DNA of 64,000 bases from Rhabditophanes sp. KR3021 (lineage: Eukaryota > Nematoda > Chromadorea > Rhabditida > Alloionematidae), in contig CAUJLY010000006.1 of the NCBI GenBank assembly GCA_963281155.1, positions 8,618,001 to 8,682,000 on the forward strand. Direction: 5' to 3'. The notes beneath the pieces were generated by a model that saw nothing but the letters and a program-made list of their open reading frames with translations, was not told where the DNA came from and did not search any database. This document shows, in pieces, positions 59,037 through 62,732 of this stretch. Within the stretch, counting starts at the first letter, position 1. Every line of letters starts with the position of its first letter. The position numbers were made by a program, and so were the translations under genes.

Positions 59037-60310
59037 ATGACTACGAAACAATATCCAAAGCTCGAAAATTTTATTATAATCTTGAAGAATAATCAGAACA
59101 GCATGAGAAATGAATGGAAGTATGGTCAATTGCTTCACTTAGTTAAAGTACCGGAGCTTGATTTGTTTGAATATCCTTTTGAAATACAATGTATTCCATT
59201 TTTGATAATGGCAAATAAGTTTGCGGATATTTTTAAAAGAAAAAATAAAACAATTCAAGATTATATTCTTTCTTCATAAATATGACTTCTTAAATTTATA
59301 CAAAAATATAATGAACACGTTTGCTGTAAAGAAAAATTCTCGTCAAAGTGTGTAGAATCTACCTTTCTTGTTATGCATATTATTTAATAGATGGTACACC
59401 AAGCATATTTTAGAAATATGTCCAAAGCCTATATTTATCCAATTCAAAGTTATCACCGATGACCACATTTTGCAGGCTTTACAACATATATAATTTAAAA
59501 GAATGCACAGGTTTTAAATATTTTACAAATTTAAGAATTGTTTCTTTCAAGGAAAGTTTAACGTCTGATTATTATGGAGAATTCAAAATAGATCACTCTT
59601 TACTCCCTCTTCCTGCTAGATTGACTATTTTCCATTTATTAATTTCTTTTGATGATTCTACAAAACTGTTATATTATTAACATAGTAATAATATGCATAT
59701 TTATAATTTATTATGTAGATTTATATTCTATCTATATTGATGCTTGTCCTAATATGATGAAGCTATTTTACTTGAATAAAGTTATTTTTCTACCAGTCTA
59801 ATGTCCAAAGGAAATGGAGAGAAGAACAGAAGTGCTTCACAAACACCTAGGAGAGCATTTTCCAGCAAAATCAGAACCTGGCAAAAATGTTTTTCGAATC
59901 TGAAAGAATTAATGATAAAAGAAGCGACACTTCAAACTTATGATATCAATTACCTCCTGAATCTTTGGAAATACTTTATTTACAGTGTACTGGCAAAATT
60001 GAATTCTCACTTCCTGAAAATCTCGGATTACTTTTGCATCTTAGATTATGCTTAAGTTTTTGATAATGAAAGTACAGAACCGATTATTCAATTAAACGAA
60101 ATACATTATAAAAATTATGTATAAAAAACAAGTAGTCATAATATATTTAACGATAACAACTGTCCCAAATTAAAAAATTTGGTTCTAAAATATAGTAGTT
60201 TCTCCAAAGCAAATATTTGTATACATTCTTATAACCCACTAGAATGCAAATTATACAACAGATGGATTCAAGGAACTCTCCTAAAGGTTATTATCGCTCG
60301 GGAAGAGTAA
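59037..60310 (+). pseudogene. Decayed leucine-rich-repeat-type gene
   Basis: Pieces of LRR-like protein in changing frames lie in order on the plus strand. They include a start-like MTTKQYPKLENFIIILKNN at 59037; EICPKPIFIQFKVITDDHIL near 59413; YFTNLRIVSFKE and LLPLPARLTIFHLLISF near 59520-59650; CPNMMKLFYLNKVIFLP near 59745; CFSNLKELMIKEA followed by ESLEILYLQCTGKIEFSLPE near 59888-60010 (shifted by one base at about 59957); and CPKLKNLVLKYSSFS near 60163. Repeated CPxL and LPxxLxxL patterns are typical LRR spacing, as in expanded F-box/LRR families. Stops and frameshifts between the pieces show the gene is broken. The related fragment at 62733-63197 is on the opposite strand. Confidence 0.6.
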
Positions 60311-60734
60311 ATAGAATTTCGTCTTTTAAAACTGATCCCTTAATTTCAACATATTCATAATAAATTAAGTACTCTTATCGTAAATGTCTTTAGCTGATTT
60401 CAAGAAGATCTTAATAATTGAGATATTAGTCATTTATCAAGCATAAATTACAAAGAGCTGATATTTTACATTGGAATCATCCGATTATTTGACTTACTCT
60501 TCCATTAAAGCAATTACGCATATAATATTTTTGTAACCAAGATTGTTTTGTTATTTATCAGTTCAAAATAAAGGTTGTGAACAAGAAGATGTTGAAATAG
60601 TAAAGTTGGTAGCATATGTCTTTATCCAGAGAATTTATATGTTTCAATTTAACTATTATGTATGCATAGATATATAGTAGGTGTGTCTTTATGTGTTAGC
60701 AGAATGTCCTACTTCCGACTTTCGCATAGTCACC

Positions 60735-60742
60735 TATAAAAG
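60735..60742 (+). promoter_or_regulatory. TATA box of the SL RNA gene
   Basis: TATAAAAG lies 30 bases before the first base of the SL exon at 60765, the expected spacing for a pol II small-RNA promoter. A moderately GC-rich stretch upstream (CTTCCGACTTTCGCATAGTC, 60712-60731) is a candidate proximal element. Confidence 0.6.
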
Positions 60743-60764
60743 GCCGAGTAAAACAGACTAAGAC

Positions 60765-60858
60765 GGTTTAAAAAACCCAGTTTGAGGTTAGTATGCGTTC
60801 AGGATTCTATATGAATTCTGTGAGCAAATTTTGGAATGAGATTTGAAAAGGTCTCTAA
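60765..60858 (+). ncRNA. Spliced-leader (SL1-like) RNA gene
   Basis: The 22-nt leader exon (60765-60786) begins GGTTTAA and ends CAGTTTGAG, matching C. elegans SL1 at 18 of 22 positions. It is followed directly by a GT donor (60787). Downstream there is an exact Sm-binding site (AATTTTGGA, 60827-60835) as in SL1 RNA. Three stem-loops can be drawn. Stem I uses AACC of the leader with GGTT across the splice site. Stem II is CAGGATTC with GAATTCTG around a TATAT loop (60800-60820). Stem III is GAGA with TCTC (60838-60855). These parts, spacing and the TATA box at -30 fit a functional donor of leader for trans-splicing. The 3' end is approximate. Confidence 0.87.
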
Positions 60859-61196
60859 TAAAATTATCCAGTGTTATCAACACATTTTTACCAGAAAAAA
60901 CTAATTAGAAGCAATATTTCTGCTAAGGATAAATTCCTTCCACGAGAATATTGATAACGGACTTTTTATTCTCACGCTCACGTAGACCTAATCAGGTTGG
61001 ATTGTACAATTGTATGTAATTACATTTTCTTAGCAGGATATTTGTTGTACGCGTATTCAACATAATGTGAAAAAAAGTATTTGATTTAACACAGGGCTAT
61101 TCATAAAAAGTAGATATACCTATTTAAAGTAATTAGTGTTTATCACTCTTTATTACTAAATATCTCGATTGAAATTGTTTCTTGCTTGTTACAAAT

Positions 61197-61373
61197 ATGG
61201 CTTTTGGACCGGTAACTAAAATCAGTATTTCTTTGCATATTAAAAAACACTTTCAAGTTCAAACATCCAATGGTACGACAGTAACTCATGTAAAAATAAA
61301 AGAATTCATCTACATTTTTAGCTTATTCTCCCCCAGGTTTTTGTCATTTTCACTATCTTATTATTGCAATTAA
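61197..61373 (+). CDS. Possible small ORF, unrecognised
   Basis: A 58-codon frame starts MAFGPVTKISISLHIKKHFQ and contains VQTSNGTTVTHVKIKEFI before turning AT-rich and ending in a stop. The first 40 residues look more coding-like than the background. An internal acceptor-like CTCCCCCAG near 61336 might mean it is one exon of a longer gene. No domain is seen. Confidence 0.2.
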   Translation: MAFGPVTKISISLHIKKHFQVQTSNGTTVTHVKIKEFIYIFSLFSPRFLSFSLSYYCN

Positions 61374-61645
61374 ACTTCCTACTCAAAAAGTTAGATGCAT
61401 TTCCGGTTCTAACGAAAGAATTGTTTATTATATTGGTGTGGCTAATTTTTAATATCATTTTTCACCCTAATCTTATTTCTAATCACTTAATATTATAAGT
61501 ATACATCTTGTACTATTATCATGTAAATTCTTTTTTAAAAGGAGCATTTAAGAAAGACCTTAACTCTGGTAAAGCACATTTACTTTACAACATCTTTTGA
61601 TCAGTGAACATTATATTACTTTGAATCCAAAATCCTATTGTTAAA

Positions 61646-62053
61646 ATGGCCGAAGGATGTTGCGCCAATTGTTTCCTATTTATAGTGTATTGCTTTTGCC
61701 CTTGTTTGGCCGTTTTAATGGATAGAGGCTGTACAGATGCATTTTGGATAAATGTTTTATGTTGGATTCTTGGGATTATTCCTTCTTATATTCACGGAGC
61801 TTGGGTAATTTGGTTCCAGGAAAAACCACACCATCATCACGTTCACACTCAATATGTAACTCATCAAATTCATACACATATACCGCCACCAGCGCAGTAT
61901 GTGGTTCGTGAAACTGTAGTTCACCAACCTATTGTTCCTCATCATCAGCATCATCAACATCATCATCATCACCGTGAAGTAATAGATTGTGCTCCGCCAC
62001 AATATATAATTCCACAACAACCTGCCAACACTTTAATTGTTACAAAACATTAG
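61646..62053 (+). CDS. PMP3/YqaE (UPF0057) small membrane protein with histidine-rich tail
   Basis: Single exon of 135 residues. The N-terminal 57 residues form the PMP3 domain: a Cys-rich first segment (GCCANCFLFIVYCFCPCLAV), a polar turn (DRGCTDAFWINVL), and a second segment (LCWILGIIPSYIHGAWVIWF). The family is small two-pass plasma-membrane proteolipids affecting membrane potential and salt tolerance in yeast and plants. Here it is followed by a cytosolic tail of about 75 residues, rich in His, Pro and Gln (HHHHVHTQY, PHHQHHQHHHHHREV), which could bind metal ions. The tail is unusual in length for the family, though nematode members often carry extensions. The start follows AAA bases and matches the domain edge. 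Confidence 0.92.
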   Translation: MAEGCCANCFLFIVYCFCPCLAVLMDRGCTDAFWINVLCWILGIIPSYIHGAWVIWFQEKPHHHHVHTQYVTHQIHTHIPPPAQYVVRETVVHQPIVPHHQHHQHHHHHREVIDCAPPQYIIPQQPANTLIVTKH

Positions 62054-62732
62054 TTGATTTTTAAATACATATGAAACATGTTTTGATTCTGTTAAATTAA
62101 ATAAAAAATTAATTTGTAATATCCAATTCCTTATAATATTCAATACAATGAGCAAAAAATGATGAGCGATTTGGCATTTGCAAATAAACGTTTTCATATA
62201 AATGTAACTTGATGTCAAATGTTTTTAATCCAATTCTACCACACACTAGCAATTATAATTTCAAACACAGTAAGTTTGTTATTTTAAGCAATCTTGAATT
62301 TATATAATCAAAAAAATAAAGATGCTCTTAATTACATATAACTATTAACATCAAACAAAACCCATTTAAAATTGTTTTATAATAAATTTAAGGTTATACG
62401 ATTTAATCATTTAAAATTTGAGGATAGACGTTCAGATAATGATTATGCATTTGATATAATTAATGTACGCATATACATCTTAGCAATACGCTCATCTTAA
62501 GCCACGAACAAATCATTTAAAGCTTAAGGAAAAAATTAAAATTTGTGTAAGGTTATAATACGATTCAAAATGAGGGTGAAATTTGGGTAAAGAATGAAAA
62601 TCACCAGTATTTATTTGTTTGAAAACATATCATTAAAACTGTTGATCAGTTTTCAACATATACACACTCAAGATTAACCGTTTTGTACAGCAAGTTATTT
62701 ATTACGGATTATTATAAATATGAAGGATTACA

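Follow-up and report, generated by a model that had tools for sequence, protein, structure and literature searches.

An SL1-type spliced-leader RNA gene of Rhabditophanes sp. KR3021 belongs to a dispersed family of about 125 copies that very probably supplies the worm's standard leader

Introduction

Spliced-leader (SL) RNA genes have been described in two quite different arrangements. According to the sections of PMC1657053 used here, Caenorhabditis elegans encodes SL1 in about 110 monomorphic genes, tandemly arrayed together with 5S rRNA genes, and its 19 SL2-like RNA genes are dispersed across the genome. The same sections report 19 different leaders in RACE clones of Strongyloides ratti, all of them SL1-like, with canonical SL1 not observed among them. 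These leaders have 5–8 bases from GGTTT to CCCA and 5–6 bases from CCCA to AG, and genes inside and outside operons carry an overlapping set of them. Leaders of this shape, with canonical SL1 not among them, are thus already on record for S. ratti.

Rhabditophanes is free-living and belongs, like S. ratti, to the Strongyloides clade (abstract of PMC10676810). The R. diutinus KR3021 v2 assembly listed in Table 1 of that paper totals 44.8 Mb, its scaffolds measuring 11.2, 9.3, 7.8, 7.5, 6.5 and 2.3 Mb with a GC content of 32.16%, and the parts of the paper used here describe its Chr6 as syntenic with the S. ratti X. The DNA analysed in this study, called the window, is a stretch of 64,000 nucleotides (C6:8618001–8682000); if contig numbers equal chromosome numbers, it would lie on the X-syntenic Chr6. 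In a limited literature search, no description was found of the Rhabditophanes leader or of a dispersed SL layout in this worm, and the literal leader strings were absent from the paper full texts searched.

Results and discussion

An earlier reading of the window, made from the letters alone, had proposed a variant SL RNA gene near its right end. The parts that this sequence-only reading named are present, among them the Sm site and the TATA box (Table 1). When compared by eye with the Rfam consensus, the leader matches SL1 without gaps at 18 of 22 positions, as had been stated, and it has the form of an SL1-type leader: about 22 nt long, starting with GGTTT and ending with GAG before a GT donor. 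With C. elegans SL1 RNA the gene shares the 22-nt leader, the donor, the three stems and the Sm site. Its leader also fits the S. ratti pattern GGTTT-N5–8-CCCA-N5–6-AG, with 6 and 5 bases in the two spacers (leaders as given in the sections of PMC1657053 used here). The Sm motif purine-A-U4–6-G-purine, as worded in the part of PMC6362198 consulted, is matched by AAUUUUGG at 60827–60834. An upstream promoter box at −57 to −38 is absent from the description that the sequence-only reading gave.

Table 1. The SL RNA gene, its parts and the duplicated segment around it, in window coordinates.
Feature	Position	Strand	Basis or remark
SL RNA gene	60765–60858	+	SL1-type leader, GT donor, Sm site, three stems, TATA box, upstream box
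Spliced-leader exon GGTTTAAAAAACCCAGTTTGAG	60765–60786	+	identical leader+GT at 115 genome places; Rfam SL1 alignment
GT splice donor, intron-like part after it	60787–60788	+	no change at G23 or T24 in 90 aligned copies
Stem I across the splice site: AACC 60774–60777 / GGTT 60786–60789	60774–60789	+	fold
Stem II: 60794–60796/60824–60826 and 60800–60807/60813–60820	60794–60826	+	fold, Sm site unpaired
Stem III: 60838–60844/60849–60855	60838–60855	+	fold, Sm site unpaired
Sm-type site AATTTTGGA	60827–60835	+	sequence; putative Sm binding
TATA box TATAAAAG	60735–60742 (−30)	+	read from sequence
Promoter box CCTACTTCCGACTTTCGCAT, proximal-sequence-element-like	60708–60727 (−57 to −38)	+	upstream consensus of 86 copies
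ACTAAGAC directly before +1, presumed start-site box	60757–60764	+	columns −8 to −1, 86–99% conserved in 86 copies
Inverted-duplicate segment with SL gene and Pmp3 gene	59463–62317	.	second copy at about C6:8,838,123–8,840,978
Pmp3-family protein gene, neighbour inside the duplicated segment	61646–62053	+	PF01679, E 2e-12

The Rfam SL1 family (RF00198) aligns end to end over exactly 60765–60858, scoring 25.8 bits (E 0.023 for a search of 601 bases) against a gathering score of 75. The gene is SL1-type by its parts and relatives, and by the cut-off it is not an RF00198 member. At gathering scores no Rfam family had a match anywhere in the window; this includes 5S, in agreement with the claim that the copy does not sit in a 5S rDNA repeat. 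A profile built from 89 other copies, with the window copy left out, had the window gene as its sole match in the window up to E 10 (E 2.8e-30). A covariance model that includes the window copy, and is to that extent not independent, gave E 2.9e-21 at the gene and only one other match up to E 10 (E 0.91).

Next we searched the assembly, which comprises 44,845,725 bases in six contigs (9.31, 7.88, 7.52, 6.57, 2.36 and 11.21 Mb). The exact leader followed by GT occurs at 115 places (50 forward and 65 reverse; 0 and 0 for the reversed-pattern control), and a pattern for the intron side gave 118 matches, 100 of them with listed places, against 2 in its control. Canonical SL1 had no exact match in the assembly, where tandem repeats are possibly collapsed or missing. 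A total of 125 SL genes was found, 115 with the main leader and 10 with six minor leaders, by searches that would miss quite different leader kinds and strongly diverged copies. The 122 genes that were read consist of 112 with the main leader, 4 with a 23-nt form, 2 with the 20-nt leader GGTTTAAAACCCAATTTGAG and 4 single forms; the remaining three are exact copies on C6 that were counted by the pattern search and are unplaced. When leader spacing was varied, the search returned 4 copies of the 23-nt leader and 3 shorter ones. The two 20-nt-leader genes are L113 (C1:1401370) and L114 (C1:2832932), and the TATA region is degenerate in both. The Sm core AATTTTGG is found in 104 of 107 copies and missing from three.

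These counts change how the gene is to be seen. That it occurs as one copy is true of the 64-kb window and not of the genome; that SL genes are dispersed is borne out by about 125 scattered copies. The supposed variant beside a canonical leader is instead the dominant form (115 of 125 genes). With 115 exact copies of leader and GT against none of canonical SL1, it is very probably the worm's ordinary leader, a standard leader that would take the place of canonical SL1. Canonical SL1 was found neither in this assembly nor among the S. ratti leaders. The two worms differ in that one leader is carried by 115 of 125 Rhabditophanes genes, whereas 19 leaders were seen in the S. ratti RACE clones (PMC1657053, sections used here).

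Mean column variation among the copies is 0.9% in the leader, 0.3% in the donor region and 0.5% in the Sm site, but 9.6% in the remaining intron part. With its own duplicate set aside, similarity between the window copy and the other loci fetched is confined to 60698–60870; together with the low variation of the leader, this makes the leader itself seem to be under constraint. The leaders are much less variable than the intron part, and stems II and III contain the compensatory changes described below, so that most copies look functional; a few are decayed.

The ungapped upstream consensus of 86 copies reads CCTACTTCCGATTnTCACAT at −57 to −38, where 13 of the 20 columns are at least 80% conserved and the others 38–79%. 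At most two mismatches to TACTTCCGATT are seen in 97 of 107 copies for this box, a putative proximal sequence element (PSE). Columns −30 to −24 (TATAAAA) are each 87–98% conserved in the 86 copies. One of the strings TATAA, TATGAAA or TACAAAA stands in the −30 region of 91 of 107 copies, the other 16 being without such a string. U2 genes, located for a comparison of promoters by eye, gave 13 matches in the assembly.

The sequence-only reading gave the RNA three stem-loops and required stem I to span the splice site. When the fold was computed with the Sm site held unpaired, all three stems were obtained, and stem I crossed the splice site with pair probabilities of 0.63–0.74. The unconstrained fold, which was better than 197 of 200 shuffles, has no stem I and contains instead a hairpin inside the leader, GGUUU/AAACC (60765–60777), that competes with it; the proposed structure holds for the Sm-unpaired fold, and stem I is its weakest point. 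On the first 35 nt, hairpin and stem I come out equal at 37 °C, and temperatures of 15–25 °C favour the hairpin. Among five variant leaders that were folded, the 20-nt leader being excluded, its five pairs are kept in three, reduced to four in one and lost in one.

Covariation was examined in 90 aligned copies, 89 of them distinct; the copies are related and the structure comes from one of them, both of which favour the result. All four pairs of stem I are invariant in the 89 copies, which speaks neither for nor against pairing. In stem II, 91.0 and 93.4% of cells are paired and 4 pairs have changed on both sides, although two of its pairs are weak (unpaired in 21/89 and 29/89 copies). Stem III is paired in 94.8% of cells, with 6 of its 7 pairs changed on both sides. 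For the two stems together there are 10 such pairs and 45 such cells, a level reached by none of 500 shuffles, and pairing is 94.7% of cells compared with at most 49.3% when the partners are slid. In a comparison by eye with canonical SL1 of C. elegans, the pair U9-A25 is A10-U25 here, with both sides changed.

The grouping of genes and their distance from contig ends were determined for the 120 placed genes (that is, without the two 20-nt-leader genes and the three unplaced exact copies on C6). These form 94 groups: 75 single genes, 14 pairs, 3 triplets and 2 quadruplets. Tandem neighbours lie 231–250 bp apart (about 240 bp), except for one gap of 488 bp. As many as 16 of the 94 groups are within 100 kb of a contig end, while such ends make up 2.7% of the genome; p-values for this enrichment come out too small, because groups were treated as independent and some are duplicates of one another. 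The genome search scored at least 47 5S genes, which are dispersed over the genome. An SL gene is no more than 1 kb away from 7 of the 47 and no more than 5 kb away from 14, compared with random means of 0.19 and 0.87.

A tandem array of the C. elegans type, with SL1 linked to 5S, was not found in this assembly, in which such an array could have been collapsed. The dispersed genes and small tandems of about 240 bp differ in this from the array described for C. elegans SL1. They are dispersed like the C. elegans SL2-like genes, from which they differ in their SL1-type leader (PMC1657053, sections used here, for both comparisons). A further 5S gene, outside the 47 of the genome search, was seen in locus L065 at 887–1005 on the minus strand (77.2 bits). 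It sits within the 488-bp gap between SL genes of that locus, shares their strand, and is perhaps a remnant of 5S–SL linkage. In the fetched stretches of the other 18 of 19 tandem SL groups, a scan up to E 0.01 gave no 5S.

Copies of the SL gene are also found within larger duplications. The 2.86-kb segment around the window gene is found again, inverted, at a distance of 161 kb on this contig, with 98.6% identity over 2857 aligned columns (about 40 differences). Within it, the SL gene and its promoter show one difference, at 60822 (G in the window, C in the duplicate), and the Pmp3 gene stretch shows 3 at the nucleotide level. On C3, an 8.7-kb inverted duplicate (L110, C3:1138300–1147000, and L111, C3:1236300–1245000) is 97.5% identical and carries a gene for major sperm protein besides SL genes and one 5S gene. 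From these two cases, segmental duplication spreads at least some SL genes. Stretches partly similar to the C3 duplicate are present on C2 (L112). A mobile element had been suspected as the vehicle on account of repeated SL–5S–SL units, and was set aside for the two C3 units, which turned out to be the 8.7-kb inverted duplicate.

Signs of use on mRNAs were sought in the genome. Retrocopied mRNAs that begin with the leader were looked for as AAACCCAGTTTGAG with no G after it; there were 0 matches, against 1 in the reversed control, and so no genomic relic of trans-spliced mRNAs. Acceptors had been expected just before the ATGs of two named genes. Acceptor-like TTTTAG and TTTTTCAG stand 11 and 7 nt before the presumed ATGs. 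A GCV_T domain, as expected of gcst-1, is encoded by the first gene, and the second is the putative TGF-beta gene of the sequence-only reading. These sites may be trans-splice acceptors, a use towards which they point faintly, since ordinary introns could use such sites as well. Transcription, with its polymerase and cap, Sm binding, trans-splicing and use on most genes are inferred.

Taken together, we put at about 0.9 the probability that the window holds an intact SL1-type gene, one of about 125 dispersed copies, that its leader is the worm's standard one, and that the copies have spread partly through segmental duplication. The sequence-only reading saw a special variant leader, expressed from a lone gene and possibly serving its own set of mRNAs. 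The leader does depart from canonical SL1 in 4 of its 22 positions, and the gene is alone inside the window, but a further 114 places encode the same leader and no place encodes canonical SL1, and the inverted duplicate 161 kb away bears the same leader and promoter; as stated, this view is refuted by copy number, and we rate it as highly improbable. It is also very unlikely that the window gene is a silent or decayed family member, of real ancestry and without a product. Loss of one among about 125 genes would be cheap, and decayed members exist (by the Sm site in L079, the upstream boxes in L054, and the CCC and donor in L055, L065 and L096). The window gene, however, has kept its promoter boxes, leader, donor, Sm site and stems intact, and gene and promoter differ from the duplicate only at 60822.

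A further rival reading has functionally distinct leaders, the minor ones on other gene sets and the main one on the bulk. The idea of several leaders for different gene sets finds slight support in the 10 of 125 genes that carry six other leaders, the 23-nt form at 4 places and the 20-nt form at 2. Against it, the minor forms are few, both 20-nt genes have the degenerate TATA region, and the leader set of S. ratti overlaps on operonic and non-operonic genes in the sections of PMC1657053 used here, so that we regard such a division as unlikely.

We lean towards a broader account, with a good deal of reserve. The 5S-linked array would have been abandoned in this worm for about 125 genes, most with a full promoter, on all six chromosomes and crowding their ends, spread by segmental duplications in which genes for 5S, major sperm protein or other products travel along; selection, rather than homogenisation of an array, would keep the leader near uniform, unlike the diverse leaders of parasitic S. 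ratti. What is noteworthy is a dispersed family with one dominant leader in an assembly from which canonical SL1 is absent. Such a family is a natural setting for testing how a uniform leader is kept up in a multicopy RNA family whose genes lie dispersed rather than in a tandem array, and for this free-living relative of Strongyloides it supplies the leader with which operons and the 5′ ends of mRNAs can be read. It also fits a proposal in the sections of PMC1657053 used here, that some worms of this branch may lack canonical SL1.

Searches of the whole genome with RF00198 reported no match, 50 of 14192 candidates having been scored, and controls were likewise silent. SmY RNA is a companion of trans-splicing in other nematodes; the genome search with its family, RF01844, gave no match, with controls again silent, so that neither negative is informative.

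Several copies depart from the intact form. L079 (471–568) is short of two T in the Sm site and probably decayed. In L054 (481–578) the upstream boxes are gone, while body and 3′ flank match L052, and it is probably a promoterless copy. Three diverged SL-like relics, in L055 (also in the overlapping L106), L065 and L096, have lost the CCC and the GT donor at its usual place. They resemble one another and have TATA-like strings upstream; they could be decayed copies or, less likely, another class. Two shorter SL-like pieces are present in L084 and L095.
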